Positions 30,100-46,994 of a DNA stretch of 64,000 nt are shown here, piece by piece (positions within the stretch are counted from its first letter, which is position 1; every line of letters begins with the position of its first letter). This stretch comes from Sideroxydans lithotrophicus ES-1 (lineage in GTDB: Bacteria; Pseudomonadota; Gammaproteobacteria; Burkholderiales; Gallionellaceae), in NCBI RefSeq assembly GCF_000025705.1, contig NC_013959.1, forward strand, positions 2,426,001 through 2,490,000, given 5' to 3'. The position numbers and the translations under genes are program-made. Under the pieces are notes generated by a model. That model was not told the DNA's origin. It searched no databases and saw only the letters and a list, made by a program, of their open reading frames with translations.

Positions 30100-30143
30100 G
30101 GTCGAGACTCCTTGATCCAAGGATGACAGGCCACCGAACAATA

Positions 30144-30161
30144 CAGAACGAACGTTCTGTT
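30144..30161. promoter_or_regulatory. Palindromic operator candidate upstream of RhuM-Fic
   Basis: ACAGAAC-GAAC-GTTCTGT, 7-bp perfect arms, lies 45 bases upstream of the RhuM-Fic start. It may be bound by the protein itself or by a resident repressor. It does not fit the LexA consensus. Confidence 0.5.
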
Positions 30162-30203
30162 GTCAATCAAGTATCGCTAAATTGGGAAATCAAGAATGAA
30201 GTC

Positions 30204-30230
30204 CAACTGGTAACAAAATGTTACCAGTTG
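30204..30230. promoter_or_regulatory. 12-bp perfect inverted repeat
   Basis: CAACTGGTAACA-AAA-TGTTACCAGTTG lies in the 227-base gap between RhuM-Fic and the flavin reductase gene. A 3-base spacer makes it a better protein-binding site than an RNA hairpin. It lies about 105 bases upstream of the RhuM-Fic start. Confidence 0.5.
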
Positions 30231-30295
30231 AAACAAACCTTTTCAGTCGGTGGAAAATTGACACCAACTCAAACTCGTCTCGTAGAAATCTCAGA

Positions 30296-30310
30296 CCGCC
30301 GCATTATTGA
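30296..30310. repeat. Direct repeat, right copy
   Basis: CCGCCGCATTATTGA is identical to 28999-29013 at the slyX end. It lies 17 bases from the flavin reductase stop codon. Together the two copies bracket the RhuM-Fic gene. Confidence 0.75.
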
Positions 30311-30326
30311 TGCGGCCATGCCGGAA

Positions 30327-30947
30327 TTACTTTTTATCTTTCAGCCATTGCGCGTAGGAGATACGCGCAACATCAAAGCGGTCGGTAGTCCGGCAATAAA
30401 CCGAAGGTGAGCCAAGCCGCCCGATAGGCGCAAAGTCGGCTACATCCATACGCGGCCCGACCAGATGGTCGGCCACATGAAACATCACCACCTCGCCGAT
30501 CACCAATGTATTGGTACCCAGCTTTTGCGAACTGTGCAGCTTGCATTCCAGACTGGCCAGCGCCTCAGCCACTCGCGGCGGTTTCACCTTGATGGATGGT
30601 GCAGCATGCAGACCGGCCGCAGCCAGCTCACTCTCTTCACCCGGAAAATCCGCCGCCGAAATATTCATCGCATCGAACAATTCCTCCGTCACCAGGTTCA
30701 CCACGAATTCGCCACCGGCCAGAATATTCTTCGCCGTGTCCTTGAGTTCACCAGCATCACTCAGACCGATGCTGACAATGACGTAGAGCGGGTTGCCGCT
30801 GATTGCGTTGAAAAAGCTGAACGGTGCGAGATTGATCAAGCCAGCAGCATTCACACTGGTGACCCATGCGATGGGGCGCGGCACCACCAGATTGGTCAGC
30901 AACTTGTAGTTTTCTGGGGCGGAGCGGTGGGATGGGTCGATTTGCAT
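30327..30947 (-). CDS. Flavin reductase family protein (FMN-binding split barrel)
   Basis: A 206-residue cytosolic protein. It shows the FMN-binding pattern PRPIAWVTSVNAAGLINLAP followed by FSFFNAISGNPLYVIVSIG, and the GEFVVNLVT segment. Members reduce flavins or act as flavoenzymes; the substrate cannot be told. Start ATG 30947 (MQIDPSHRSAPENYKLLTN). A core-like gene lying between accessory modules. Confidence 0.88.
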   Translation of the reverse strand: MQIDPSHRSAPENYKLLTNLVVPRPIAWVTSVNAAGLINLAPFSFFNAISGNPLYVIVSIGLSDAGELKDTAKNILAGGEFVVNLVTEELFDAMNISAADFPGEESELAAAGLHAAPSIKVKPPRVAEALASLECKLHSSQKLGTNTLVIGEVVMFHVADHLVGPRMDVADFAPIGRLGSPSVYCRTTDRFDVARISYAQWLKDKK

Positions 30948-30992
30948 ATAACGTGTTCTCAAAGAGGGCAGCAATTCTAAGCAAACTTACAT

Positions 30993-31841
30993 TCAGTCAA
31001 TCGCCACTATTCCACGACATTGAGGATAATTTGAGCATCCCCAGAATGCCTTGCCAGTATTGGCACCTTGCTTGGCAATGCGTCGAACCATAGGGCTACC
31101 GCAATTCGGGCAGGATTGCACTGCACTGGCCGCTGTAGTGACATGAGGTGTGACTTCAGGCGGAAAAGTGGAAGGACGAACTTCTCTGATGATTTCCTTC
31201 AACTCGGCACCATCGATCAAATCGATATTACGCCCTTCAGCGAAAGCCTTGGCTTCCTGCGTAAACACTCCCGATGTCACCACGAACCCGCCAGTTGCCC
31301 CCCCTGCAGCCATGACACCATATAACTCACGAATGGTTGTTACGCCCACTTTGAATGCTTTCCACTGTTTGCACTGAACGAGAAACTTTTCGCTGTCTTT
31401 ATGCAGCACCAGATCAACGCCACCATCAGCTCCGCCTCCGCCAGTCTCGGTAACCGTGTAACCGCCACGTCTAAACGCCTCACCCACCAGCATCTCGAAT
31501 TCCTGCCACGACATATCGTCCAGAATAGAAACGGATGATCCTTTCTGAACGACTGCAAGTAACGCGTTACGTTTATGTCGCCCAAAGGCAGAAACGCCAG
31601 CTCCTATGATGGAAGCGAGAGGAATCAGATATTGCCCAAACGTGGCAAGCATCTTGCCAAGTTGGCTGGACACATTAGCACCCAGTTGCGCAACTGACGT
31701 GGGTTGCACAATTTCAGCAGTCGCATAGTGGTGCAGTACAAAATATGAAATGAGCGCAATAAACACCCCCGCCCACCACGGGAGCATGGCTGCAATATCA
31801 ATCAAGTCTTCAAACGTGCCTTGTTGCCTCTTTCTAGCCAT
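30993..31841 (-). CDS. Membrane-anchored Mrr-type restriction endonuclease
   Basis: A 282-residue protein. Two membrane segments (about 20-38 and 66-86) precede an Mrr catalytic domain (105-220) with GADGGVDLVLHKDSEKF (D143) and QCK (Q156, K158), the D-QxK nuclease triad. A topoisomerase-type zinc ribbon follows (C244, C247, C269, C275; CPNCGSPM and GCSNYPQC). Mrr domains cut modified or foreign DNA. Placed downstream of hsdMSR and a PLD-like gene, it is a likely member of one defence operon. Confidence 0.9.
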   Translation of the reverse strand: MARKRQQGTFEDLIDIAAMLPWWAGVFIALISYFVLHHYATAEIVQPTSVAQLGANVSSQLGKMLATFGQYLIPLASIIGAGVSAFGRHKRNALLAVVQKGSSVSILDDMSWQEFEMLVGEAFRRGGYTVTETGGGGADGGVDLVLHKDSEKFLVQCKQWKAFKVGVTTIRELYGVMAAGGATGGFVVTSGVFTQEAKAFAEGRNIDLIDGAELKEIIREVRPSTFPPEVTPHVTTAASAVQSCPNCGSPMVRRIAKQGANTGKAFWGCSNYPQCRGIVAID

Positions 31842-31920
31842 GACGCTTACTCCAGTACCTATTCATCATGGAACCGTGGGCTGCCCCTGAATATTTGTCC
31901 CCGAATATCCCACTAGTTTT

Positions 31921-33267
31921 TCAATACACCTTCACATCAAAACCCAAGGCTCTAAGCGCTTTACTGGTACGTCCATTCCTAGGTGGCGTAACTTCGGGGA
32001 GAGCCCAGCCAACCAGTTCAGCCATGGAATTAAGTCCATAATGCGGAAGAGAATAATTCTTATCATGCGAAGCGATGTAAAGACGCTCCCACAAATCCTC
32101 ATTCCTCCCTCCGTATAGCACATAATTTAGCAATTGCAGCACACTCCAACCCATTGCATTACGCTGCTGTAACAACCAACCCGCATAAAGTGGAAGGCGC
32201 TCTTCCCGCGAAAGAGTTTTCAGATCAGGCCTTCCCAATGCGGCGAGCTTCATCTTAATAACGTGATCCCGCGTCGCGTGAGTCCTTTCACAAACGCCCG
32301 CAAATTCGGCTTGAGTTAAATTCAATACATTATCTCGGGAAAGATGCTCTCGAATGTAGGGAGCGCCATCGTAGAAGGTGTAGTCTTCATTCGATGGTGG
32401 AGTATCTGTGCCTGCCCACCAAGTCAGCATGGCTGAAACTGCCGCATTAGGATTACGCCTATTCTTGGCAAAATAATCCTCAAATGGCTTCCTATTTGCT
32501 TCACCCACATGATTGTAATAGTAGGCATGCAAATACTGATCCACTTGCCATGTCAATGGAACATCTTCTTCCACCCAGCGTGGTCGATGAGTTCGTAGCT
32601 GTTCACCAATGCTCTGCAGATGAGCCAAAGCATCGTGCCACTCTCTTCTGAATTTCTCTTTCCTTCGATCCCAAGCTTTTTTCTTTTCAGAAAACGCGGG
32701 CCCTTCCCAACTTGGCTTCTTCCTCAGTTCTTTGCCTATATTTTGAAGTCCTTTTCTCGCAGCTTCAATTTTCGCCAACTCCTTTATGACATCTTCATCC
32801 AAAGGAAAGACCTGCTCGAAGCTTCGCAGACTTTCAAAAAAATTCTCCAACTCAATATGCATTCCGTTGTCCTGCAGATCCGCTTCTGTCAAAAAGACAC
32901 CAGCCTCAATGTTGCTTACCCATGCTCTATCACTAAGATTGGCAGAACCAATATATGCGCCATATCCTCGCCACCAAATAACTTTGCTATGCAAGACATC
33001 TGGCACAAGATTGCAAAAAATATTGTCTTTGTGGTGTCGTAACAAGCGCCACAGCAGGGGCAGTGCTACAGGAACAGTATGGTCATACCGCATCCAGATA
33101 TCGAGCCGATAACGATTTGCAATGCAATGTCCAATGAAGTCGCCCTTTTCATCATTAAAGTTTGACCCATATGCGATGGCAGCTAACACGCCATCAACTT
33201 CATCACTTGGGGCTGGGAGAACATTGCTAAGAAAGTTTCCATTTAACGCATTTGCTATGAATTCCAT
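31921..33267 (-). CDS. Phospholipase D-like domain protein downstream of hsdR
   Basis: A 448-residue protein. The N-terminal region has one HKD-like motif: HSK at 93-95, then GSANLSDRAW at 107-116 and E121. This is the PLD pattern used by nucleases of defence systems. The remaining 300 residues are charged and helical, with no known domain I can name. Its base composition is more AT-rich than the core. It follows hsdR by 38 bases and precedes the Mrr gene by 79, all on one strand. It is likely a nuclease accessory to the type I system; lipid cleavage is less likely. Confidence 0.85.
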   Translation of the reverse strand: MEFIANALNGNFLSNVLPAPSDEVDGVLAAIAYGSNFNDEKGDFIGHCIANRYRLDIWMRYDHTVPVALPLLWRLLRHHKDNIFCNLVPDVLHSKVIWWRGYGAYIGSANLSDRAWVSNIEAGVFLTEADLQDNGMHIELENFFESLRSFEQVFPLDEDVIKELAKIEAARKGLQNIGKELRKKPSWEGPAFSEKKKAWDRRKEKFRREWHDALAHLQSIGEQLRTHRPRWVEEDVPLTWQVDQYLHAYYYNHVGEANRKPFEDYFAKNRRNPNAAVSAMLTWWAGTDTPPSNEDYTFYDGAPYIREHLSRDNVLNLTQAEFAGVCERTHATRDHVIKMKLAALGRPDLKTLSREERLPLYAGWLLQQRNAMGWSVLQLLNYVLYGGRNEDLWERLYIASHDKNYSLPHYGLNSMAELVGWALPEVTPPRNGRTSKALRALGFDVKVY

Positions 33268-33305
33268 TAGATCCTCAAAATTACGAACACCTTAGACAAG
33301 CTAAC

Positions 33306-36300
33306 TCAAGCCGCCCACTTCCTATGATGACTCGCATAATCAAGCATCAAGTGAAACACGTTGTCGCACTTCTCCCTGAACAGCACACGGTCGTAGCTAT
33401 CCGGAAGTTCGCTATCCAGCACTTTCTCCACTGTAGAGCGCACTTGCTTCTGGGTCTGCGAATCCTTGTACCAATCCTGCACCAGCACCTTGGGTTGCTC
33501 CTCCAGCAGGCGATGCAGCAGTGACTTGGCCGCAAGCTTCACTTTTTGCGTTTCCTCCTGCGTCATCTTGTCCTTCTTCAACAGGTCGAAAAGTTCCAGT
33601 TCGTCGTCCGTCAGCCCCTCGCGGATGTGCCGCTCTTCTTCGGCACGCAAATCTTCGGCGTACTTCATCAGCTCTTCATATGAATTTTCCGTAGATGATC
33701 CGCCCGAATTGTATTTGTCGATAATCTCCTGCAAGCGCTGCGCAAAGTCGGTGCGCGTCGCATTTTGTTGCAGCATCAGTTCCAGCTTGTGTTGCAGGAA
33801 GGCGCGCAGGTCGGCAATTTCAATGTTCTTGTGGACTGCCTGCTTAAACTCCTCTCGCAGTTTGTCGAAGTTGATCTTGCTGAGATCCCAGGTCCTGCCC
33901 TTCTGAATGATCTGGTATTCCGCGTTGTATTGCCGCGCTTTGAATGCCTCTGCGTCGTTCACCACAACGCTTTCATCCAGCAGATTGGCTATCTTCAGGC
34001 TGATCGCGTCGATGTCCTTTTGTTCGATAAGGCTGTCGATCACCCCGCGCAGGTATTGGAACGCCGCCACCTCGCGCCCCTTGCCGTGCCCGAGAACTTC
34101 CGGCTTGCACGCCTCATACAACGAGGTGATGGTGTTCTCATACACGTTAAAACCCTTGCGCCATTCGTCGTTCGCCAACAAGGAATCGGCAAATACATTA
34201 AAGCGGCCAAGTTTCTCGAACACATCCGCACTGCCCAGCACTTCACGCAAGGGAACGCCCTTCTCATGGCAGAACGCCAAGCCCTGCTCAATCGCATCAT
34301 CCAGCAAGCGGAACAGCATTGCCTTTTCCTGCACCGGTGAATCAACCTCAACGCCCCCTTGCGCGTAATCCTTCAGCGCCTGCTTCATGTTGCGGAACAC
34401 GTTATAGTAATCCACGATCTCGCCGTTGCGCTTCTCCACCCCGTTGATCTTCCAGGAGGTAACGCGGTTGGCGCGGGCAATGGTTTGCATCAGGGTATGT
34501 CCCTGCATCGGCTTGTCGAGGTATAGCGTTGAAAGTGTGGGTGCATCAAAGCCCGTCAGCCACATCGCACAAACGAACACCAATTGCAGCGAATCCTCCG
34601 GGTCTTTGAAGTTGTATTCGATATCATGGCTGTGTTTATCCAGCTTGTTCATGCGCTCGCGATGCGGCTTGATATTCAGCTCCTGCTCGGCAAACTTTTT
34701 CTCCTCGTCTGCGTCCTCGCTGATCACCACCGCCATTTCCACCGAGCGCATGTACTCGACAATCTGCTTCAACCGGACCTTCTCAATATCGTTAGCCGAT
34801 TTGCTGATGCGCCCGAGCAAGTTCTTGATTTCTTCTTTCCACAGCCGCTGCACCTTGTCGTACATTTTCACGGCGGTGTACTTATCCACCGACACCACCA
34901 GCCCTTTGCCCAAATAACCGCGCCGTGGAAAGTGATACACAATATCCTGCGCAATGGTCTCCAGGCGGCCATCACGTTTGATGACCTCAACCTCTTTTGA
35001 GAACCGCCTTTCCAGCTTGGCTTGTTGCGCCTCGTCCAGATTCTCATCTTCCAGAATCTCGTAAAACTCCTCACTCAGATCGTCGTTCTGAATCAGTACT
35101 TCCGGCACGCGCTTTTCGTAAAACAGCGGCACCGTCGCGCCGTCATCCATGGACTGCTGGAAGTTGTATTCCGAAACATAACCGCCGAACCACGCATTGG
35201 TCTTCTGTACACCGCCCACGCGCTTCAGCAGCGGCGTGCCGGTAAAAGCAATGTATTGCGCCTTGGGCAACCCCTTGCGCATGTTCTCTGCAAAGGTCTT
35301 GTATTGCGTGCGGTGCGCCTCGTCCACGATCACGATGATGTCGTTGCGCCCGGATAGCTCGGGATACTCGCGGCCTTTGTCCCAGCGGAATTTCTGGATC
35401 AGGGTGAACACCAGCCGCTTGTTCTGCCCAAGAAACTTGCGCATCTCCTCGCTGTTCTTGGGCTGCGCGGCTTCGGCCTCGCTGACCGTGCGCGTGTTCA
35501 GGAAGTTGCGATAAATCTGCCCATCCAGATCATCGCGGTCGGTCACCACCACAAAGGTGAAATTGCCGGTCTGTTTTCGGAAAATCTTGCGCGCATAAAA
35601 AATCATCGAGAAGCTCTTGCCCGAGCCCTGCGTGTGCCAGAACACACCCAGCTTGCCCGCCAGCTCCTCTCGTTTAAGGAAGGCTTCATAAGCCCGGTTC
35701 ACGCCGATGAACTGGTGGTTCTGCGCGATGATCTTCGAACTATCCTTGTAGTAGAGAATGAAATTCTCCACGTAGTCCAGCAGCCTGCGCTTGGGCAGCA
35801 AACCTTCGATCACACCTTCCAGGCTTATGCCCTGCTCGCGGATCGCGGCGCGGTCGATCTTCTGCTTCTCGTCATCCGCGCGCAGCCAGTTGAAGAAATG
35901 CTCCCACTCCGCCGTGATGCTGCCCACCTTGGTCTCGATGGCATTGGACAGCACGCAAAAAGCGTTGGTCAGGAAAAGCTGCGGAATCTCCGCCTTGTAA
36001 GTCGTCAGGTTATCGTCGTAGGCGTTGCGCAACTTCACGTTCGAGTTTTTCAGCTCGATGAACACCAGCGGAATGCCGTTGACGTAGAGCAACACATCCG
36101 GGCGGCGGAAACCGCGCTCGCCCTTGATCCAGAGCTGGGTGACGGCTAGGTAGCGGTTGTTGTCTTGAGTCGCCGGATTGAAATCCAGCAGACGCACTTG
36201 CTCCTGCTGCCGCACCCCCTGCGCGTTGTCGAATTCCACCGGAATGCCATCGCGCAACAGACCATAGATTTCCCGGTTCGCGGCGATCAACGTCATCGCC

Positions 36301-36548
36301 TGCCGACGGTCGAGCAGCTTATCTAGCGCATCCTCAATCGCGGTAGCGGGAATGTCCGGGTTCAGACGAATCGCAGCCTCGCGCACCCTTTCCACTAGAA
36401 TCACATCGCGCTTGTTGGCTCGGCCCGAGCCATCGTTCAAGTCTTCCGCATTTTCCGTAAAGCAGTCGAGCGCATCGAAGCCGTGCTGATGCTGGAGCTT
36501 TTGCACCAGCGCCTGCTCGATCTGATCTTCGGAAATGAAGTTAGGCAT
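33306..36548 (-). CDS. hsdR: Type I restriction enzyme subunit R (HsdR)
   Basis: A 1080-residue motor and nuclease subunit. The PD-(D/E)xK site is RRPDVLLYVNGIPLVFIELK (D151, E165, K167). The helicase has Walker A TQGSGKS (306-312), DEAH (409-412) and later SF2 motifs, with a C-terminal coupling region. All key residues are intact. The start codon overlaps the hsdS stop by 8 bases. With HsdM and HsdS it should translocate DNA and cut at a distance from unmethylated sites. Confidence 0.97.
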   Translation of the reverse strand: MPNFISEDQIEQALVQKLQHQHGFDALDCFTENAEDLNDGSGRANKRDVILVERVREAAIRLNPDIPATAIEDALDKLLDRRQAMTLIAANREIYGLLRDGIPVEFDNAQGVRQQEQVRLLDFNPATQDNNRYLAVTQLWIKGERGFRRPDVLLYVNGIPLVFIELKNSNVKLRNAYDDNLTTYKAEIPQLFLTNAFCVLSNAIETKVGSITAEWEHFFNWLRADDEKQKIDRAAIREQGISLEGVIEGLLPKRRLLDYVENFILYYKDSSKIIAQNHQFIGVNRAYEAFLKREELAGKLGVFWHTQGSGKSFSMIFYARKIFRKQTGNFTFVVVTDRDDLDGQIYRNFLNTRTVSEAEAAQPKNSEEMRKFLGQNKRLVFTLIQKFRWDKGREYPELSGRNDIIVIVDEAHRTQYKTFAENMRKGLPKAQYIAFTGTPLLKRVGGVQKTNAWFGGYVSEYNFQQSMDDGATVPLFYEKRVPEVLIQNDDLSEEFYEILEDENLDEAQQAKLERRFSKEVEVIKRDGRLETIAQDIVYHFPRRGYLGKGLVVSVDKYTAVKMYDKVQRLWKEEIKNLLGRISKSANDIEKVRLKQIVEYMRSVEMAVVISEDADEEKKFAEQELNIKPHRERMNKLDKHSHDIEYNFKDPEDSLQLVFVCAMWLTGFDAPTLSTLYLDKPMQGHTLMQTIARANRVTSWKINGVEKRNGEIVDYYNVFRNMKQALKDYAQGGVEVDSPVQEKAMLFRLLDDAIEQGLAFCHEKGVPLREVLGSADVFEKLGRFNVFADSLLANDEWRKGFNVYENTITSLYEACKPEVLGHGKGREVAAFQYLRGVIDSLIEQKDIDAISLKIANLLDESVVVNDAEAFKARQYNAEYQIIQKGRTWDLSKINFDKLREEFKQAVHKNIEIADLRAFLQHKLELMLQQNATRTDFAQRLQEIIDKYNSGGSSTENSYEELMKYAEDLRAEEERHIREGLTDDELELFDLLKKDKMTQEETQKVKLAAKSLLHRLLEEQPKVLVQDWYKDSQTQKQVRSTVEKVLDSELPDSYDRVLFREKCDNVFHLMLDYASHHRKWAA

Positions 36549-37821
36549 GGGCTTCTTCCCTCATGCTGGGTGGGAACTGGATATCGAGATTTTCGACGGA
36601 GAGTTTGCCGGAGATGAGTCTAGGTAGCAGTCTATCTCGCACTTGTGTATAGCCCTGCGTCGAAAACATTAATGTCCTAATTTGATCAAAGATTGGACGC
36701 ACAATTTGGTTGTACTGTCCTATGAGATCAGGAGGTGGAAGCAATATCTTCTCTTTTTCGACAATATCTTTATTGATGTGCTGCTGGCCGCCGCCGCTCT
36801 GTTTCGCAATCAAGTTCTCTATATTCGTTTTGACATACTGAAAAATATATTCACTGTAAACGCCGACACTGTCATACACACCAACGACGGACTGATTAGC
36901 GCATACCGCAATCTCGGTTAAGCTAACTTGCCCTAGAGTTGCGCCAGTAATAGCAATAACGGTTGTCCTTCTTGGCATTATCTTTGTTGCAGAGTAGCGA
37001 AGTCCATCTTCGGTCAAGTATTCAGATGCCTCAACGATGCGTAGTTTATTCACCTCGCCTGAGTTGATCCATGGAATCTCGCCTCCCCAATATGAAAGCT
37101 CAGCTCGTGATGGCGTGCCGCCAAGGCAAGTCGCGAACTTTCGGCCAATTTCACAAATTTCCCAATCCGATGGCAGCCCCTTATTGAATGTCGTTTTCTC
37201 GTAGCCATGAAAGCGCATACGCACGAACCATTCACGGTATATCTCCTCGGCCATTCTTTCTAGTAGCGCGATGCGATGCTGGTTGTTATCGATGAGTTCG
37301 TCATACGCCGAGAGAATTGCTGCGATTTTCCTTTGAACGTTTATTTCATGTGTAACCAAGGGCAAGTTCTTTACCATTTCAAGACTGAGAAAACCTTGCG
37401 CCACACCACTCTTAATTGCATGAACTGCTGACTGAAAAGCCGACGAGGTCATAAAATGATACAAATAATCTGGGCACAACCCTGAACTTGGCCGCAATAT
37501 AGCCACACTACTAGACAAGCCGAATCTGTCTCTATGCTTAACGGTGTATGGGGTGCCTAGTGAACCAATAATCCCAAACAGCACATCCCCTTTTACGGGA
37601 GTCGTCACAGCTTTTTTTGTTTTCCCAAAGTGCTTTTCGTAATCCCCCTCGCTGATATAGTCAACGTTACTTAGGTCCAGCCCAGACGACTTAAAGTTTT
37701 TTGCAGACAAGTACATTACGCCGTGCTCTTGTCGTGCAATACTCGCATGTGCCCCATCCCCTACTTGGCAAAAATCTTTTAGCCGACCGACGTGGTTGTG
37801 TCGCTGAAGTGCTTGTGTCAT
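36541..37821 (-). CDS. hsdS: Type I restriction enzyme specificity subunit (HsdS)
   Basis: A 426-residue protein with two target-recognition domains (about 10-160 and 220-370) separated by conserved helical spacers (QRKIAAILSAYDELIDNNQH and the C-terminal GQYNQIVRPIFDQIRTL). It is AT-rich relative to its neighbours, as usual for rapidly exchanged TRDs. It overlaps hsdM by 4 bases and hsdR by 8. The recognised DNA site cannot be read from the sequence. Confidence 0.96.
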   Translation of the reverse strand: MTQALQRHNHVGRLKDFCQVGDGAHASIARQEHGVMYLSAKNFKSSGLDLSNVDYISEGDYEKHFGKTKKAVTTPVKGDVLFGIIGSLGTPYTVKHRDRFGLSSSVAILRPSSGLCPDYLYHFMTSSAFQSAVHAIKSGVAQGFLSLEMVKNLPLVTHEINVQRKIAAILSAYDELIDNNQHRIALLERMAEEIYREWFVRMRFHGYEKTTFNKGLPSDWEICEIGRKFATCLGGTPSRAELSYWGGEIPWINSGEVNKLRIVEASEYLTEDGLRYSATKIMPRRTTVIAITGATLGQVSLTEIAVCANQSVVGVYDSVGVYSEYIFQYVKTNIENLIAKQSGGGQQHINKDIVEKEKILLPPPDLIGQYNQIVRPIFDQIRTLMFSTQGYTQVRDRLLPRLISGKLSVENLDIQFPPSMREEAHA

Positions 37822-39887
37822 GCATCACCCGTAAGCCGTTTCACGTTGTGATCAACCACTTCCACCAGCCCTTGCGCCACTATATTCAAACTAGATAGTT
37901 CTTCATTCATCGCCAATAGCTCGTCAATGAACTCCTCCTCCGTCTTGCCATCCTCTTCGATCACCACACCGACGTAGCGACCAGGATTCAGTGAATAGTC
38001 TTGCTCCTGCAAATCAGCCGGGCTGGCGAGTTTGCACAGGCCGGTGACATCTTCGTATTCCGCTTTGGGGAAGCGCTCCTGCAACCAGTGGATGTATTGA
38101 TAGAAGATTTCAGCGTTCTTCACTTCCTTGTGCAATTCTTCCAGCGCCCCCTTGAGCGCATTGGTCTTGCGATCAGTGGTGGCGCGCTTGCCTTCGGCCT
38201 GCGCTTGTGCGGCCTGCTGCTTTTCGTGCTGGCGCACGACCTTGTCCAAGTGCTTCAAGCCTTCATGCAGCGCAGCAAAAAATGGATCGAACGCCTCCCG
38301 CAATTGCTGCTGCGCCTTGTTCTTCTTGTCCACTGCCGATTCATCCGCATGCTTTTCCTGATATTGCTCATAGCGGGTTTTGAGTTTGGCCAACCCCGCC
38401 CATTGCTGCACCAGTTCGCCCACGGCCTGTTTGCCGCCAGCGTCGTCCAGCACTTCGAGCAGTTGCGCGGAGACGGGTTCGACGTTGGTTTTGTTCTCGA
38501 CCAGGCGCTGCATGCCTGCCGCGAAATAGCGGTCTATGAGCTGCACGAATTTCTCGCGTCGCCCCTTGTGCAACTGACTGATGATGGCGATGTTCTGGAT
38601 GTGTTCTTCGCTGAATTCGCGGTGGGCACGGTCTATCTGGGTGAAGATGTTGCGCGCGTCGATGAACAGGATTTTGTCGTCGGTCTTGGCCTTGTCGAAG
38701 AACCACAGCGTGGCCGGGAGCGTGACGGTGTAGAACATGTTCGAGGGCAGCGTGAGCATGGCGTAGATGAGGTTTTGCTCGATCAGCGTCTTGCGGATGT
38801 CGGCTTCGGAGTGGCGCGCATCGGATGCGGAATTGGCCATGACCAGCGCGGCGCGGCCTTGCGCTTTGAGCGAGGTGGCGAACAGGTTGATCCACAGGTA
38901 GTTGCCGTTGGGCACGGTTTCCTTGCCTGCGTCGGCCTTCTTCACTTTCGATTTGTTGCGCGGGATGCCGTAGGTGTTGAAGCGCTTGTCCTTCTCCACG
39001 CTGGAGAGGCTCACGTCGTCCACGTTGAACGGGGGATTGGCGAGGACGTAATCGAATGCGCCAAAACTCTGGTACGGGTCTTCGTAGTAGGTGTTGGCCT
39101 GCTTGATTTCGCCGCGCAGGCCGTTGACCGCGAGGTTCATCTTGGCGAGGTTGACGGTGTCGCGCGTTTTTTCCTGGCCGCAGACATACACGCCGCTTTC
39201 CGAGCCTTTCAGTTCCTTGCGGTGTTCCGCGATGAACTGGGCAGACTGCACAAACATGCCGCCGGAGCCACAGGCGGGGTCGAACACCTTGCCGCCGTGC
39301 GGCTCGATGATCTCGACCATCAGACGCACCACGGAACGTGGCGTGAAAAACTCGCCGCCTTTTTGGCCTTCGCTGCGCGCAAATTCGGACAGGAAGTATT
39401 CGTAAATCTGCCCGAACAAATCGCCGGTGGCATCGGCGGGAATGTCGGCAAAGGTGCGCAGCAACTGCTGAGGGATGGTCTTGTCCGTGCGCGTCAACGC
39501 GGCATATTCGTCCTTGGGCAATACGCCTTCGAGTTCGGGCTTGTATTCCTCAATGGCCTTCATCGCCTCTTTGAGCGCCTTGGCGATGTTCTTCTCTTCC
39601 GGCAGATTCAGCAGATGCTCGTAGCGTGCATGGTCGGGCAGGTAAAACCCGCATTTCTCGATGGCGATGTCGGAAATTTTCTTCTCGCGGCGCGAGCCTT
39701 TGAGCTTGGTGTACTCGGCGTGAATTTCGGTCTCAAAGCGGCGGTAGTTGTTGTCGGCAAACTTGAGGAAGATCAGCCCCAGCACGGGGGTGGCGTATTC
39801 GCTGGACTTCAGGTCGGAATTGGCCCGCAGCTTATCGGCGGCACTCCATAAGTCGGCTTCCAGCTTTTTGAGTTGTTCTTTGTTCAT
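37818..39887 (-). CDS. hsdM: Type I DNA methyltransferase subunit (HsdM)
   Basis: A 689-residue N6-adenine methyltransferase. An N-terminal HsdM helical domain precedes the SAM motif FDPACGSGG (202-210) and the catalytic NPPF (284-287). A long C-terminal extension (470-689) contains a coiled region with many K, Q and A residues. First gene of hsdM-hsdS-hsdR. A palindrome related to the xre-immA operator lies 84 bases upstream of its start. Confidence 0.97.
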   Translation of the reverse strand: MNKEQLKKLEADLWSAADKLRANSDLKSSEYATPVLGLIFLKFADNNYRRFETEIHAEYTKLKGSRREKKISDIAIEKCGFYLPDHARYEHLLNLPEEKNIAKALKEAMKAIEEYKPELEGVLPKDEYAALTRTDKTIPQQLLRTFADIPADATGDLFGQIYEYFLSEFARSEGQKGGEFFTPRSVVRLMVEIIEPHGGKVFDPACGSGGMFVQSAQFIAEHRKELKGSESGVYVCGQEKTRDTVNLAKMNLAVNGLRGEIKQANTYYEDPYQSFGAFDYVLANPPFNVDDVSLSSVEKDKRFNTYGIPRNKSKVKKADAGKETVPNGNYLWINLFATSLKAQGRAALVMANSASDARHSEADIRKTLIEQNLIYAMLTLPSNMFYTVTLPATLWFFDKAKTDDKILFIDARNIFTQIDRAHREFSEEHIQNIAIISQLHKGRREKFVQLIDRYFAAGMQRLVENKTNVEPVSAQLLEVLDDAGGKQAVGELVQQWAGLAKLKTRYEQYQEKHADESAVDKKNKAQQQLREAFDPFFAALHEGLKHLDKVVRQHEKQQAAQAQAEGKRATTDRKTNALKGALEELHKEVKNAEIFYQYIHWLQERFPKAEYEDVTGLCKLASPADLQEQDYSLNPGRYVGVVIEEDGKTEEEFIDELLAMNEELSSLNIVAQGLVEVVDHNVKRLTGDA

Positions 39888-39970
39888 GTATCCCGTTTTT
39901 CTTATTTAACCGGCAGAGTTGCGCCCCGAATAGTACCGTCAAACCCGTGCAGTAGACCATGCCATCTTCA

Positions 39971-39990
39971 GGTCAAATTTGTGACATCAA
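39971..39990. promoter_or_regulatory. Operator-like palindrome upstream of hsdM
   Basis: GGTCAAATTTGTGACATCAA is an imperfect version of the TCACAAtTTgTGA sites at 41836-41856 and 44706-44730. It lies 84 bases upstream of the hsdM start, suggesting shared control. Confidence 0.55.
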
Positions 39991-40003
39991 ATACCAAAAC
40001 AAA

Positions 40004-40027
40004 ATGCCTCGCATCGCGGCGAGGCAT
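40004..40027 (-). terminator. Terminator of the xre-immA/PIN operon
   Basis: ATGCCTCGC-ATCGCG-GCGAGGCAT forms a 9-bp stem. On the minus strand it is followed by TTTTGTTTT. It lies 29 bases downstream of the PIN gene stop. The sequence around it resembles the terminator downstream of tRNA-Ile at 44742-44771. Confidence 0.8.
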
Positions 40028-40055
40028 CACACAGGTGTCGTTTGCCTTGTCTACG

Positions 40056-40646
40056 CTAAGGCTTCGGCCCAAACAGTTTTATGAATACGGAATGTTTGGC
40101 CTCCTGCCAAGTACGCGGCAGGTCGTCGTTGTTTTCGAGTGCTGCGTAGATATCTTGCACAAGGTCTTTGGTGATGGCTTTGGCAGTCAGCATCTTCTTC
40201 AGCAGCTCGTGCCCATGCCAGATGTCGAGGCCGAATTCATTGGCAAGTTTATGCATGCCAAGGTCGTCGGTGACGACGATGGCAGACCGAACCTGACCAA
40301 AGGCCAGCATGAAGCAATCTGTTGGCGACGGGGGTGAACGACCTTGGGTTGTATAGCCATGCGGATCGTCCAGTACATAGGCATGTAATACGCTGGCTGC
40401 GGCTTCGATTTTTGTCCGCTCATCCGCGCTAAGGCGAACTTGCCTGGACATCCGCTCGGTGTTCAGCTCTGTATCTGCGAACCAGGGATAGAGGAATTGA
40501 AGCCGGGGGCTTTTGAAGACTTCTTCTTCGACTTGTTTCAATACGGTAAGGCTGTATTTCTTGTTTCCAAACTCGACACCCAGCAGGGGGCGGATGCGCT
40601 TGGCCAAACGCAAGTATGCGTTGGTATCAAGCAGCACGAGGATCAA
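40056..40646 (-). CDS. PIN-domain protein (putative toxin nuclease)
   Basis: A 196-residue protein. The PIN core shows LLDTNAYLRLAKRI (D7), an acidic helix near residue 41, PTDCFMLAFG (D110) and VVTDDLGMH (D127/D128), the four acidic positions for Mg2+. It is translated in a 4-base overlap with the Xre-ImmA gene. PIN toxins usually cleave tRNA or mRNA. I infer that the upstream protein is its regulator or antitoxin. Confidence 0.85.
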   Translation of the reverse strand: MILVLLDTNAYLRLAKRIRPLLGVEFGNKKYSLTVLKQVEEEVFKSPRLQFLYPWFADTELNTERMSRQVRLSADERTKIEAAASVLHAYVLDDPHGYTTQGRSPPSPTDCFMLAFGQVRSAIVVTDDLGMHKLANEFGLDIWHGHELLKKMLTAKAITKDLVQDIYAALENNDDLPRTWQEAKHSVFIKLFGPKP

Positions 40647-41767
40647 CGGATAAGTTCCTCGTAAAGTGCGGAGGCGTCTTGTAATGATGTATCCAGGACT
40701 TGCCGGACATACGACGCACCGGTGCCACTAACGTGAATCATGCGTTTCAGCGCCTGGAAGAAGCCGGTCTGGAAGGTTTTTTCACAGGCGGCAATGTAGC
40801 GCTGGGGCGATGGCGGCATGGGGTCGAACATGGTTTCGCTGACCAGCGGGCCGCGCAGGCTGTTGCGCACAGTGTGTATGTACTTTTCTTCGATAGGCAG
40901 CAGCATTAAATTGTTTGCCTTGGCATACCGTTGAACCTGTTGGAATACGGTATTCAGTGAAATCATGTGGGCAGTTGCCTGTTGCCACAGCACCTCGATC
41001 GCACGGTCGAGACTTGTCTGCTGGGTGGCAGCGCGATAGGTTTGCTCTGCGCAGGCCTTGGGATACAGCAGCGCACCGGCGAAAGCATCGGCAAAGTCTT
41101 CGCCCTCGTTTTTTCCTGAAAGCTCAGGGGTGAGCACATGCGCCAGTTCATGCGCCATCCAGAATTTGAAATCTTCCAGCCGGGTATCGAGATTGAGGAA
41201 GATGAAGGTTACGTCTTCCTGCGGCAGACGAATATGCAGGGCATTCTCATGATTGCCTTTGGCGCCCCAAAGTACGGGCACCAGGATGGCACCACAGTCC
41301 TTGAATTCACCAATCAGGTTTTCGTAGGCGAGCACAGCCTGTTCGCCTAGACCTAAACGGCTGCGCGTTTGCGACACAATAATTTGCAGTTTGTCGTACT
41401 CGGTCGACGGCGATGTAATCAGCGTGCGCAATGCCTGCAACTCGGGCAGGTGTGTAACGAGGGGTTTAAGCAACATGCCGATGCCTTCGGCCTTGGCGAT
41501 GTGTGCATCGGTCGTTTTGGCGTTGGCCTTCTTGCGGTAAGCGATAACAGGACGCCCCACATCGTTTGTCAGTACGAGCTGGTCGAATGTCAGTCCGAGG
41601 GTAGTAGCGAGCTTGAGAAGTGATGCCGGACGGGGAAAGTCTTTCCCCTTTAACCAGTTGGTGACAGCCTGGGACGACGTCCCAACCTCACTTGCCAACT
41701 GTTTTTGTGTAATCCCGCGTTCTGCGAGAGCACTCTGAATCGCAGCTGAATTCAGTAGTTTTTCCAT
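40643..41767 (-). CDS. Xre regulator fused to ImmA/IrrE metallopeptidase
   Basis: A 374-residue protein. Residues 10-60 form an Xre helix-turn-helix (ITQKQLASEVGTSSQAVTNW). Residues about 125-235 form an ImmA/IrrE domain with HELAH at 206-210 and the downstream acidic ligand in GEDFADAFAG. Such proteins control mobile elements and stress genes by cleaving repressors. It sits first in an operon with the PIN gene, and a palindrome lies 69 bases upstream of its start. Confidence 0.92.
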   Translation of the reverse strand: MEKLLNSAAIQSALAERGITQKQLASEVGTSSQAVTNWLKGKDFPRPASLLKLATTLGLTFDQLVLTNDVGRPVIAYRKKANAKTTDAHIAKAEGIGMLLKPLVTHLPELQALRTLITSPSTEYDKLQIIVSQTRSRLGLGEQAVLAYENLIGEFKDCGAILVPVLWGAKGNHENALHIRLPQEDVTFIFLNLDTRLEDFKFWMAHELAHVLTPELSGKNEGEDFADAFAGALLYPKACAEQTYRAATQQTSLDRAIEVLWQQATAHMISLNTVFQQVQRYAKANNLMLLPIEEKYIHTVRNSLRGPLVSETMFDPMPPSPQRYIAACEKTFQTGFFQALKRMIHVSGTGASYVRQVLDTSLQDASALYEELIR

Positions 41768-41835: not shown

Positions 41836-41856
41836 GTGGTCACAATTTGTGACCAC
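41836..41856. promoter_or_regulatory. Operator candidate of xre-immA
   Basis: GTGGTCACAA-T-TTGTGACCAC, 10-bp perfect arms, lies 69 bases upstream of the xre-immA start. It is the strongest of three related palindromes in the island and fits autoregulation by the Xre domain. Confidence 0.65.
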
Positions 41857-42394: not shown

Positions 42395-42426
42395 AAAAAC
42401 CGCCGTGGATTCCATGGCGGTTTTTT
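42395..42426. terminator. Bidirectional terminator
   Basis: AAAAACCGCC and its exact complement GGCGGTTTTT enclose a further short stem. The A and T runs on both sides allow termination on both strands, for the small membrane protein (plus) and the 92-residue protein gene (minus). Confidence 0.85.
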
Positions 42427-42430
42427 GTTG

Positions 42431-42447
42431 CCCTCGCGGACTTGAAC
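42431..42447 (-). repeat. Partial tRNA-Ile 3' end, distal copy
   Basis: CCCTCGCGGACTTGAAC is identical to part of the T-arm and acceptor 3' half of the tRNA gene at 44778-44854, and is preceded by TTGTTG as in the other copies. It is not a functional tRNA. It ends 14 bases before the stop codon of the minus-strand gene that follows, the same layout as the copy at 43416-43445. Confidence 0.8.
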
Positions 42448-42461
42448 GTGGGCCTACGATT

Positions 42462-42740
42462 TCAATGGTGCAGCGCTTTATCCAGTGAGTGGTGCAATTT
42501 TTCGGCGTCGTGCTGTGCAAGTTGATACTTTACTGTCTCGCCCACCATCAGCTTGGGACAGGAATTCACCAGATCCAGCTCGATGGGATATTTGCCGCTG
42601 GCTATGGCTTCTTTCAGGTATTTGAGCTTGTTGCCGGCGTCTTCCATGGAAAGGCAGAAGTGGTGCTCTTCATCAGTCACGCTGATGCTTTTGTTGCCTG
42701 CATGGGTGACCGCCTGGCAGTGAAACCGTTTCTTGGACAT
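42462..42740 (-). CDS. Hypothetical 92-residue soluble protein
   Basis: A small basic protein, MSKKRFHCQAVTHAGNKSIS at its start, His-rich (about ten His) with three Cys and no membrane segment. AAAGGAGAAGTGA precedes the ATG, so translation is well supported. I recognise no domain. It lies in a cassette bounded by two partial tRNA-Ile copies, together with a divergent dodecin gene, with overlapping promoter regions between them. Confidence 0.75.
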   Translation of the reverse strand: MSKKRFHCQAVTHAGNKSISVTDEEHHFCLSMEDAGNKLKYLKEAIASGKYPIELDLVNSCPKLMVGETVKYQLAQHDAEKLHHSLDKALHH

Positions 42741-42933
42741 TCACTTCTCCTTTGTTGCTGCATTTTGCGCTGGCAAAGCAGTCTGCGCCCCGCCCTTGCC
42801 AGTGTCAAACCTCCCCCGGGTTGTTGCCGCCAGCGCCGGAGAAAGCTATGGCAGAGATCGGCGGATAGGCGTAATTTATAAAGCCGCATCACTGGTCAAC
42901 CACTGCCGTTCAACAAAGAATAAGGAGAAGGTC

Positions 42934-43152
42934 ATGGCTAAAGACAGCGTTTACCGTATTACAGAGATAGTCGGAACCAGCAAGAAATCCTGGGAGGATG
43001 CCGCCTCGAACGCAGTCAAAGCCGCCTCCCAGACCTTGCGGGACTTGAGGGTCGCCGAGGTCATCAAGCTGGACATGGTGGTTGAAGGCGGCAAGGTGGC
43101 CGCTTACCGGGCGAAAGTGGCGCTGTCGTTCAAGTACGACCCGAAGAAATAG
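42934..43152 (+). CDS. Dodecin family flavin-binding protein
   Basis: A 72-residue protein that forms a hollow dodecamer storing riboflavin or FMN. VYRITEIVGTSKKSWEDAAS and the AVKAASQTLRDLRVAEV helix match the family. AAGGAGAAGG precedes the ATG. It lies in the same att-bounded cassette as the 92-residue protein. Confidence 0.92.
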   Translation: MAKDSVYRITEIVGTSKKSWEDAASNAVKAASQTLRDLRVAEVIKLDMVVEGGKVAAYRAKVALSFKYDPKK

Positions 43153-43381
43153 TTATTCACCGTTTTTGTGGATAACTGGCTAGATAAGTCCGCCCCGGCG
43201 ACCCTAACCCTAAACGGTATATACGATTTTTGTCGTCGTTCATTTCGCGGGCGATTTCTTAACTTTGCTTTTGCAATGTTGTGACAACTGCAACCCGGGA
43301 TGGACTAAAGGGATGCTCTGGGTCCTGGAGCGACAGGCTCTTGATTTCGCATACATGGCGGAAGCATCGGTTCGCGGCAAA

Positions 43382-43409
43382 TAAAAAAACACTTACATTT
43401 CTGTAAGTG
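43382..43409 (-). terminator. Terminator downstream of fic on the minus strand
   Basis: CACTTACA-TTTC-TGTAAGTG (43390-43409) is followed on the minus strand by seven T. It lies just beyond the partial tRNA copy at 43416, so fic transcription passes through the remnant and stops here. Confidence 0.85.
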
Positions 43410-43415
43410 CTTGTT

Positions 43416-43445
43416 TGTTGGTGGGCCCTCGCGGACTTGAACCGC
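43416..43445 (-). repeat. Partial tRNA-Ile 3' end, proximal copy
   Basis: These 30 bases are identical to 44775-44804, which span the encoded CCA, the acceptor 3' strand and most of the T-arm of tRNA-Ile. The identity then stops abruptly. This is the signature of an attachment site left by an element that integrated into the tRNA gene. The fic gene lies between the two copies and stops 11 bases after this one. Confidence 0.9.
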
Positions 43446-43456
43446 CACCTTTGCCG

Positions 43457-44581
43457 TTATCGGAACAGTTTCAAGTAGGCTTCAAACGTATACATTTTAC
43501 CTCTCTTGCCTCCGGTGATTTCTTTCAATATCCCGAAGCGTTCCAGGTCGGCGATCAGTTTGTATGCCGATGCTGGCGATACTCCCGCCACTTCACCCAC
43601 CTTGGCAGCATCAATCATCGGGCGTTGATACAGGTAATACATCACTTTCTGCGCATTTGCCGCCCGGCTGCCTAGCGTCTGCAACTGAACCTCCACTTGT
43701 TTCTGCAGCTTGAGGATGTTATCGAATGTCATAGTGCTGCTTCGCGCCGTTTCAATAACCCCTACCAAAAAGAATTTGAACCATTGCAGTAAGTCGTTCT
43801 TCTCGCGCACACGCATCAGGTTGTCGTAATAATGCTGACGATTGCGCTCAAAAAAATCCGACAGATAAAGCACCGGCTGTTTCAATATTCCGCGGCTTAC
43901 CAGATACAAGGTGATCAATAATCGTCCCACACGTCCATTGCCGTCCAAAAATGGGTGGATAGTCTCAAACTGATAATGCACTAGCGCAGCTTTCAATAAT
44001 TCAGGAAAATACTGCTGGTCGTTATGTACGAACTTTTCGATGTCACCGATCAGTTCGCCAATAGAAGAATGTGCCGGTGGCACAAATATCGCATCATTGA
44101 TGCTCGCCCCGCCAATCCAGTTCTGGCTATGTCTGAACTCCCCAGGCTGTTTGTGTTTACCGCGCACGCCCTGCATGAGCGTCTTGTGCGTCTCGCGAAT
44201 CAAGCGAGCTGAAAAGGGCAACGTTTGCAATTTCGTGACTGCCTCGTTCATCGCCGCCACATAGTTCTGCACCTCTTCCCAATCGTCTCGCTTATCCAAC
44301 GCCACATCCTCTTTTTCCAGTAGCGCCTCCTCCATATTCGTCTGCGTTCCCTCGATCTTGCTCGACTGGGTCGCCTCTTTCAGCACGTGCATGCGGATAA
44401 AGAGGTCAATATTCGGGATGTACTCGGAATACATATCCAGCCGGCCCAACTCGCGATCTGCCTGTCCAAGCAACTGGAGTAAGTTCATATCGTCCATTAC
44501 CCATACACGGTCGATGAGACTGGGCTGAAAGCTTTTGTATTGTGTCTGCTGAATGAGGTGGCCAGACTGGAAATTCTTCAT
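43457..44581 (-). CDS. Fic family protein (AMP-transferase type) with winged-helix tail
   Basis: A 374-residue protein. An N-terminal helix carries SSKIEGTQ, the (S/T)xxxE(G/N) autoinhibitory motif. The core motif is HPFLDGNGRVGRLL, complete for AMP transfer. The C-terminal 80 residues form a winged helix (AAKVGEVAGVSPASAYKLIA), suggesting DNA binding. It lies between a full and a partial copy of tRNA-Ile, so it came in as an integrated element. A palindrome of the xre-immA type lies 125 bases upstream. Confidence 0.92.
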   Translation of the reverse strand: MKNFQSGHLIQQTQYKSFQPSLIDRVWVMDDMNLLQLLGQADRELGRLDMYSEYIPNIDLFIRMHVLKEATQSSKIEGTQTNMEEALLEKEDVALDKRDDWEEVQNYVAAMNEAVTKLQTLPFSARLIRETHKTLMQGVRGKHKQPGEFRHSQNWIGGASINDAIFVPPAHSSIGELIGDIEKFVHNDQQYFPELLKAALVHYQFETIHPFLDGNGRVGRLLITLYLVSRGILKQPVLYLSDFFERNRQHYYDNLMRVREKNDLLQWFKFFLVGVIETARSSTMTFDNILKLQKQVEVQLQTLGSRAANAQKVMYYLYQRPMIDAAKVGEVAGVSPASAYKLIADLERFGILKEITGGKRGKMYTFEAYLKLFR

Positions 44582-44705
44582 TGGAGTGCTCCCCTTAAAA
44601 TAACGTCAGACACTGTTTTAGATTTTACTAAAAATATAAAACAGTGCAACGCGTTAATTCAGTAGAACTTGTCATTCCGAACTGTCTATGAGCCTGAACA
44701 TGGAT

Positions 44706-44730
44706 TTGATGTCACAATTTATGACATCAA
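44706..44730. promoter_or_regulatory. Operator-like palindrome upstream of fic
   Basis: TTGATGTCA-CAATTTA-TGACATCAA, 9-bp perfect arms, has the same core as the site at 41836-41856. It lies 125 bases upstream of the fic start and just downstream of the tRNA terminator. Confidence 0.6.
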
Positions 44731-44741
44731 GTTCGATAAAC

Positions 44742-44771
44742 AAAAAGCCTCGCAGAAATGCGAGGCTTTTT
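44742..44771. terminator. Terminator downstream of rpoD and tRNA-Ile
   Basis: AAAAAGCCTCGCA-GAAA-TGCGAGGCTTTTT has 13-bp perfect arms. On the minus strand it ends the rpoD-tRNA transcript 6 bases after the tRNA CCA. Confidence 0.92.
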
Positions 44772-44777
44772 GTGTGT

Positions 44778-44854
44778 TGGTGGGCCCTCGCGGACTTGAA
44801 CCGCGGACCAAAGGATTATGAGTCCTCTGCTCTAACCAACTGAGCTAAGGGCCC
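44778..44854 (-). tRNA. tRNA-Ile(CAU), lysidine type
   Basis: Minus-strand reading gives acceptor GGGCCCT, D-arm GCTC-AGTTGGTTA-GAGC, anticodon loop CTCATAA (anticodon CAU), T-arm CGCGG-TTCAAGT-CCGCG and encoded CCA. C4 and C5 of the acceptor stem and the similarity to E. coli ileX mark it as the minor Ile tRNA whose C34 becomes lysidine, rather than elongator Met (GGCUACG acceptor). It starts 6 bases after the rpoD stop and is co-transcribed. It serves as integration site for the cassettes to its left. Confidence 0.9.
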
Positions 44855-44860
44855 GTAGAC

Positions 44861-46825
<1,965 letters not shown>

Positions 46826-46994
46826 TGTGTGGGTTCCCAAAGTTGATTCGTGTTCGAAATACACGGCACGCGAAAAAGGTGGTGCCGCCGAAAAGGTCGC
46901 GGATTATACCCGATTTCTTAAAACATTTCCGCAGCTTAGCTTCATTTGATCTCAGGTCCCAGGCCAGCAAATAGCGTGCCTGATGCCTGTTTTT

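Follow-up and report, generated by a model that had tools for sequence, protein, structure and literature searches.

Stacked Insertions at a tRNA-Ile(CAU) Gene Beside rpoD in Sideroxydans lithotrophicus ES-1: A Probable Hot Attachment Site with an Integrase-Less fic Cassette

The tRNA-Ile(CAU) gene beside rpoD in Sideroxydans lithotrophicus ES-1 is probably a hot attachment site at which insertions have stacked, the youngest being a fic cassette that lacks an integrase gene, and the more distant of two partial tRNA copies (remnant 2) being the scar of an older insertion. The gene lies in a 64,000-nucleotide stretch (the window, G000:C1:2426001-2490000) of a genome of 3,003,656 bases in one contig, which carries the handle G000 among the genomes compared here. 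As far as sequence comparison reaches, the repeats of the locus, empty sites and the inserts that relatives carry at the same tRNA demonstrate that DNA has inserted there, that the 3' part of the tRNA was duplicated and that insertions have stacked.

The tRNA-Ile(CAU) Gene and Its Partial Copies

ARAGORN finds a single tRNA in the window, with anticodon CAT and the program label Met; its identity as tRNA-Ile(CAU) would follow from its sequence and its position beside rpoD (Table 1). Two partial copies of its 3' end lie downstream on the same strand. A preliminary description of this DNA had reported 30 nt of the tRNA in remnant 1, which is exact, and 17 nt from position 42431 in remnant 2, for which we find 18 nt from 42430. 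Remnant 1, if extended, is identical to the tRNA at 34 of 35 nt, and remnant 2 is without 5 nt of the acceptor end relative to the tRNA. A 24-mer of the tRNA 3' end has two matches in the window (up to 3 mismatches), compared with none in 100 shuffles, and an 18-mer has three, compared with a shuffle mean of 0.09. With up to 2 mismatches, the 18-mer occurs at three sites genome-wide, all of them at this locus, and the reversed control occurs at none. The shuffle counts and the genome-wide 18-mer search led us to reject chance as the source of the repeats.

A gene ends close to each remnant, with the fic stop (43457) at 11 nt from remnant 1 and the stop of p92, a gene for a 92-residue protein (42462), at 14 nt from remnant 2, and a hairpin follows each, an arrangement that had been described correctly to within one base. 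In the genus, hairpins akin to the one behind the intact tRNA of the window also follow the tRNA in several units and are shared among their flanks. A terminator scan returns seven terminator-like sites in the window versus 3.3 +/- 2.0 in shuffles, and the hairpins after the tRNA and after remnant 2 are known as inverted repeats and are absent from its list, so that the scan alone supports termination weakly. The 3' part of the intact tRNA is the copy that adjoins the youngest unit. The claim that the region holds no integrase gene stands for tyrosine integrases, since the three PF00589 matches of the genome all lie outside the window; serine recombinases were not searched.

Occupied and Empty Sites in Relatives

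The DNA following the tRNA was oriented in 25 of 34 genomes of the genus, omitting the nine in which the tRNA body pattern had no match, and the length read varied between about 250 nt (G004) and 45 kb. Eight of the 25 (G000, G009, G011, G012, G024, G026, G032 and G033) contain partial copies of the tRNA 3' end. In G009, the backbone found immediately after the tRNA in G002, G015 and G016 picks up again 1,693 bp further on, at base 33 of the tRNA copy, and a pairwise DNA comparison shows that the sequence following the tRNA in G033 and G024 resumes in G032 after 1,195 bp. In G008, the tRNA stands close before the dodecin gene with no fic between them; about 200 nt beside remnant 1 are unmatched there, and the correspondence is not base-exact. 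Because occupied and empty sites pair in this way, the DNA was inserted at the tRNA and the repeats are not due to chance. Repeated site-specific insertion, which the preliminary description had proposed from the window, is borne out by relatives that show different inserts, empty sites and integrase-bearing elements at this tRNA; a uniform gene order with no alternative cassettes was looked for among them and not seen.

A further 59 genomes of the family were read, and seven were selected for two nearby matches on one contig and strand. The other 52 gave no such second match among the matches listed and no partial tRNA-Ile copy at the threshold; the matches in G049, G051, G096 and G122 correspond to complete tRNA genes. 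Of the 52 stretches, eight are shorter than 6 kb, and G115 gave no tRNA call. Counting the inserts that adjoin the tRNA (for G012, the one between its two distal copies, a 29.6-kb element being left out), the family presents 15, nine of which are smaller than 2 kb (728 to 1,731 bp). The open reading frame (ORF) lists of these nine contain no integrase.

Among the nine small inserts, fic, mazEF or hicAB is present in seven. The fic genes at this spot in G009 and G011 have the SoFic model of PADLOC as their best match (6.7e-105 and 2.1e-57) and are 29% and 25% identical to that of the window by tblastn; over global alignments, the fic genes of G000, G009 and G011 are 21-28% identical. G012 carries a fic of the G011 type. 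The insert of G026 encodes mazE and mazF, and those of G068 and G113, which belong to other genera of the family, encode hicA and hicB, the HicB of G113 being assigned by similarity. G032 carries a gene pair of 79 and 279 aa with no family match, the 79-aa protein having been scanned against Pfam only, and G150 two genes without a clear family. The genes are co-oriented with the tRNA in eight of the nine and opposed to it in G150. From the last stop codon to the remnant, the distance is 11 nt in G000, 12 in G009, 6 in both G011 and G012, and 0 in G032, where the tRNA copy's own TAG supplies the stop of the second gene; it is 58 nt in G026, 124 in G068 and 114 in G113. Between G068 and G113, identity is 72.2% for the hicAB genes but 93.7% over the 1,500 backbone bases after the remnant, a difference consistent with separate arrivals or with replacement at one site; the genes may also have diverged fast.

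The other six inserts, in G024, G055, G137, G131, G033 and G102, measure 5.4 to 22.6 kb. The DNA between the tRNA-Ile and a 39-nt remnant in G033:C5 holds, 16.7 kb after the tRNA, a denitrification-like cluster recognized by eye (norCB, norQ/D-like and nirS-like genes).

For tRNA-Ile(CAU) alone, five forms of the T-stem occur among 23 genomes (without G012 and G020), and three forms of the segment from the D-arm to the anticodon stem. Variation in the T-stem would be expected if the incoming DNA brings the 3' part.

Integrases and the Site of Recombination

Integrases were confirmed with Pfam in the inserts of G102 and G131. The integrase-like gene of G055 is short and under the PF00589 cut-off, that of G137 was recognized by its likeness to the gene of G131, and none was seen by eye in the inserts of G024 and G033 (ORFs of at least 100 aa in G033). 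Directly after the tRNA, G031 carries a Pfam-confirmed integrase; G022 has an integrase by similarity.

The repeat starts at the anticodon loop in ten of the 15 inserts (G009, G024, G033, G055, G068, G102, G113, G131, G137 and G150), that is, at positions 30-34 in a count in which the sequences of the genus have two extra bases. Upstream of remnant 1, the bases ATAA are spaced as in the anticodon loop, but being only four they prove nothing about the crossover of the fic unit in the window. Phage contigs contain the tRNA 3' half in 67 stretches, of which 36 are complete tRNA genes by a rule-based call. Among the 31 that are not, three are cut by contig ends, and in the other 28 the identity to the tRNA ends 0-9 nt upstream of the search word; because this word begins in the anticodon loop, shorter copies like those of the window would be missed. 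A relative of one of four integrases of this study lies within 3 kb of eight of the 67 stretches.

A triple TTGAC was considered as an arm-type motif shared by the units, since it occurs near those of G005, G011, G012 and G026, and was rejected because it also stands beside other genes in G009, G016 and G025 and is thus not unit-specific. With a spacing of about 11 nt, this motif is found in seven of the 34 genus genomes, beside toxin-like, restriction-type and other genes (G009:C8, G016:C24, G025:C42).

The fic Unit of the Window

The coordinates of the locus are collected in Table 1. The fic gene is the only substantial ORF of the inserted unit, and its closest named relative is from a Gallionellales metagenome-assembled genome. 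Its product has SoFic as the best-matching PADLOC model (1.1e-119) with an intact Fic motif, and scores 166.9 bits against the NCBIfam SoFic equivalog NF046030; the cut-off of 550 is not reached, and the protein is therefore termed SoFic-like. The PADLOC model also matches widely, if more weakly, in 300 of 398 genomes of the phylum at E 0.001. The Fic protein of the window may have a defense function, which SoFic exerts against phage by AMPylation. The sequence includes HPFLDGNGR and SSKIEG, which we take to have motif roles in Fic. For 38 of 80 homologues, the DNA alignment with fic starts 74-83 nt upstream of the start codon, and the far end of the alignment generally coincides with the stop codon. 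The inverted repeat in the conserved upstream region is a possible operator.

Table 1. Features of the tRNA-Ile(CAU) locus, in positions of the window
Feature	Position	Strand	Basis or remark
Intact tRNA-Ile(CAU), attachment gene	44778..44854	-	ARAGORN; Rfam tRNA 72.2 bits
Remnant 1, 30 nt of tRNA 3' end	43416..43445	-	Exact repeat
Remnant 2, 18 nt of tRNA 3' end	42430..42447	-	Exact repeat; acceptor end damaged
Inserted unit, 1,359 bp	43446..44804	-	Measured between equivalent points of the tRNA and remnant 1
Fic protein, 374 aa, motif HPFLDGNGR, SoFic-like	43457..44581	-	Pfam Fic_N + Fic
82-nt upstream region, conserved with many homologues; inverted repeat 44598-44626/44631-44659 (I2)	44582..44663	-	
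Hairpin after the tRNA, terminator-like	44740..44773	.	Inverted repeat I9, 15/15
Hairpin after remnant 1	43387..43412	-	Terminator scan
Hairpin after remnant 2	42395..42425	.	Inverted repeat I11
rpoD (sigma-70), chromosomal anchor upstream of the tRNA	44861..46864	-	667-aa ORF; named by sequence
Dodecin gene	42934..43152	+	Pfam Dodecin
p92, 92-aa gene	42462..42740	-	

Homologues of the window fic reach 89% identity and, in the best 80 of 425, come from records whose titles name many phyla. In two Bacteroidota, the gene again has a tRNA on one side and a copy of the 3' part of that tRNA on the other: in Solitalea agri (L092), fic lies between tRNA-Pro(GGG) and a 44-nt copy, and in Cesiribacter (L100), fic and a gene that appears acetyltransferase-like by eye lie between tRNA-Leu(GAG) and a 47-nt copy. 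A scan of 110 fic loci, comprising these best 80 of 425 homologues and 30 loci of the genus, found any tRNA in 19; weak or neighboring-tRNA matches (L110 and L120) were not counted. Together with the three of 30 loci described in the Discussion, this led us to reject a general link of SoFic-like genes to tRNAs, and fic is one cargo among others.

Remnant 2, Dodecin and p92

The preliminary description had divided the region into two cassettes, one with fic and one with dodecin and the 92-residue protein. The fic unit is clean. The dodecin gene occurs within 20 kb after the tRNA in eight of 25 genus genomes and p92 in nine of the 25, to which G012 is added to give ten genomes; p92 has no family match in Pfam, PADLOC or NCBIfam. 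A decayed tRNA copy after p92 is found in G000, G012 and G011, for which 0, 1 and 9 of 150 background stretches, respectively, score as high. It is weak in G024 and G032 (five of 150 each), and the background stretches of G011, G012, G024 and G032 contain true remnants. No tRNA copy was found after p92 in G005, G008, G017, G026 and G030. Since half of the ten p92 genomes are without the remnant, treating dodecin and p92 as a cassette is not justified. Because the decayed copy recurs after p92 in some relatives, the insertion is old, and the comparison indicates that remnant 2 is the scar of an insertion that predates the fic unit and is common to some relatives.

Neighboring and Side Elements

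Near-identical palindromes (GTCACAATTTRTGAC) at window positions 41839-41853 and 44711-44725 flank the region and may be regulator sites. To its left, positions 29107-41767 hold a defense-type cluster with a RhuM/Fic-domain protein, an Mrr-type nuclease, type I restriction genes and a helix-turn-helix/IrrE-like protein. In G012:C2, at about 740.8-770.5 kb, tRNA-Ile(CAU) is split in the T-loop by the element of about 29.6 kb, which has short inverted ends (TTATGTGGTA). The element carries a tRNA-Ile(CAU) of its own, into which a group I intron is inserted (Rfam RF00028, 53.3 bits), and its first two large genes are weakly like those of the gamma-mobile-trio proteins GmtY and GmtZ, under the NCBIfam cut-offs.

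Comparison with Known Systems

Accretion at one attachment (att) site, decay to cis-mobilizable elements (CIMEs) and mobilization of such elements have been described in the available portions of two reports (PMC5704250; PMC3146451). The locus resembles CIMEs and accretion of the ICESt1 type, which, in the part of the source at hand, keep att repeats, lack integration and transfer genes and are stacked at one site (PMC5704250): the fic unit is flanked by att-like repeats of its target gene (the 30-nt repeat) and holds no integration or transfer genes (no PF00589 match; serine recombinases not searched). Unlike CIMEs, the units described here measure 0.7-1.7 kb, contain one or two genes with no trace of conjugation or integration genes, and are known from sequence alone. 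The ssrA islands of Dehalococcoides are likewise tandem and bounded by repeats of an RNA-gene 3' end, and 15 of them lack the integration module according to the accessible portion of the report (PMC3146451); they differ in their tmRNA target, serine-recombinase integrase and reductive dehalogenase cargo, as opposed to single toxin-like or defense operons at tRNA-Ile. In the additive flexible islands of Alteromonas and Methylophilaceae, a conserved tRNA also gathers cassettes with tRNA 3'-end repeats (PMC4119200, PMC10872708, available portions); those portions describe no one-operon toxin-like or defense units, and the Alteromonas cassettes are metal-resistance and hydrogenase clusters.

Integron cassettes and clusters of attC sites lacking integrases (CALINs) would be alike in having one gene followed closely by a recombination site, with the integrase acting in trans (CALINs, PMC11389934, in part). 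The site here, by contrast, is a tRNA 3' end plus a hairpin. Nor does the unit stand in an array beside the integron integrase of this genome, whose gene (G000:C1, about 388.3 kb; L165 3273-4298; TIGR02249, 502.4 bits) is distant from the window at 2.426-2.490 Mb, namely by 2.1 Mb along the contig or by about 0.9 Mb if the contig is a circle; integrase-less arrays are exempt from this comparison. The fic unit encodes no tyrosine integrase, as a tRNA element with its own integrase (a phage, an integrative mobilizable element or a satellite) would. Tycheposons are delimited by a tRNA border, a tyrosine recombinase and 4-200 kb of cargo in the part of the report consulted (PMC10872708), compared with 1,359 bp and no recombinase here. 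The Fic protein resembles the abortive-infection system SoFic in its match to the PADLOC model. It differs in that a downstream antitoxin, AS1, is reported for that system in the portion of the source available (PMC12249575), whereas the window fic ends only 11 nt from the remnant. A literature search with narrow sets of terms, over sources available in part, found no compact one-operon tRNA units with toxin-like or defense genes. Tandem accretion at tRNAs is already known from CIMEs, and the one-operon units look like a new form of it.

Discussion

In the mechanism that we propose, elements of the family with a recombinase, presumably of the tyrosine type, would insert at tRNA-Ile(CAU). Each insertion rebuilds the tRNA with the incoming 3' part and hairpin and displaces the old 3' part as a remnant. 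Because each pushes the old 3' part away, insertions stack with the youngest next to the tRNA. The youngest unit in the window consists of the tRNA 3' part, its hairpin, the upstream region and a single gene, the SoFic-like fic. The hairpin of the displaced remnant (43387..43412) would terminate the fic transcript. Compact units of this kind may be non-autonomous and placed by the integrases of phages, satellites or mobilizable elements that use the same site, and they may be kept for their addiction or defense value.

Several observations weigh against the interpretation of the locus as a hot attachment site with stacked compact cassettes. No remnant is seen in 17 of the 25 genus genomes. The fic genes of G011 and G012 are 90.4% identical in DNA and their p92 genes 92.6%, and these values indicate that the two genomes share one fic insert by descent, i.e., a single event. 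The intervals from the first to the second remnant measure 995 bp in the window, about 1.25 kb in G011, about 1.7 kb in G055 and about 2.6 kb in G012, and no recognized toxin-like family was found in these four (the genes of G055 and G012 being inspected by eye); since three of the inner intervals then count as inserts smaller than 2 kb, toxin-like genes are present in seven of 12 rather than seven of nine. One-operon units also stand directly after the tRNA with no visible tRNA remnant in G005 (194-1221 after the tRNA; a nucleotidyltransferase and a HEPN-like partner, by eye), G025 (263-2090; an AIPR protein) and G030 (212-1148; a DUF6036 nucleotidyltransferase and a partner). Fic genes are widespread in the genus (26 of 34 genomes), and a fic of G001 lies 3.8 kb past the tRNA with no remnant. 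Among the 30 best SoFic-like loci from a sample of 398 genomes of the phylum, three have a tRNA within 1.5 kb, and only that of the window has a remnant. The tRNA copy starts outside the anticodon loop in G000 (52), G011 (42), G012 (42), G026 (40) and G032 (9), and because the remnants of the window genome begin in the T-arm, a crossover in the anticodon loop is not established for it. No integrase has been shown to act on any small unit, and the PF00589 matches of the window genome comprise only the integron integrase and two Xer recombinases, the two strong matches probably being XerC and XerD.

Other accounts of the repeats and of the small units were weighed against these data. That the repeats are not att sites but fragments of the tRNA duplicated by chance or spread by gene conversion is highly improbable. 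The window remnants are short (30 and 18 nt) and the second is damaged, but remnants adjoin inserts whose empty sites are present in relatives, and copies in relatives reach 39-62 nt. Two further accounts concern the origin of the small units and are both compatible with the insertion history. The units may be leftovers of single internal deletions in larger integrase-bearing islands, from which the toxin-like operon next to the right att site (attR) survived; this account adds that loss of the operon is harmful and that the units are dead and were never mobile as such. We regard it as about evenly balanced. In agreement with it, the nine small inserts show no integrase, larger inserts with and without one exist at the same tRNA, the G055 integrase is short and probably incomplete, a route to CIMEs is described in the available part of the literature (PMC5704250), and one event per unit would suffice. 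By contrast, unit flanks of at least 40 nt, compared with eight larger elements at this tRNA, contain no trace of integrase or other island sequence and, beyond the hairpins, give only scattered short matches to such elements; furthermore, genes end 0-12 nt from the remnant in five of the nine, and unrelated operons are found in the same build. The island-free flanks would lean against gradual decay, not against one clean deletion each.

Alternatively, the compact units may be mobile as such, with phage or satellite integrases that share the tRNA att site recombining them in trans, an account that we consider possible and on balance doubtful. It agrees with the repeat start in G009, G068, G113 and G150, which equals that of integrase-bearing elements and phage contigs, with the hicAB units that have diverged genes at one site of a closely similar backbone, and with the presence, in two phyla, of tRNA-flanked inserts that carry a SoFic-like fic at three different tRNAs. 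It is opposed by the fact that no identical unit was found in two backgrounds, the G011/G012 pair fitting common descent, and that no integrase arm sites have been shown; transfer between cells would also still need a carrier. Stacked insertion at tRNA-Ile(CAU) remains our preferred interpretation of the locus under either origin of the units.

The entry of single small operons into chromosomes is mostly unexplained, despite the rapid turnover of defense and toxin-antitoxin genes. At a tRNA that gathers one-operon units, flanked by repeats and matched by empty sites in relatives, this entry becomes testable, since the ends of the units, the sequence of their arrival and possible helper integrases can be specified. 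We tentatively raise the rather unlikely proposition that these units belong to a class of minimal cassettes, each made only of a tRNA 3' half, its terminator and one toxin-like or defense operon transcribed in the direction of the next copy, that are mobile and parasitize the tRNA-specific integrases of phages and satellites in trans. If this is true, such cassettes would relate to tRNA att sites as integrase-less cassettes relate to integrons, and phage defenses would be stacked operon by operon. If the units do move in trans, the recombinase that installs anti-phage defenses would come from phages and satellites themselves.

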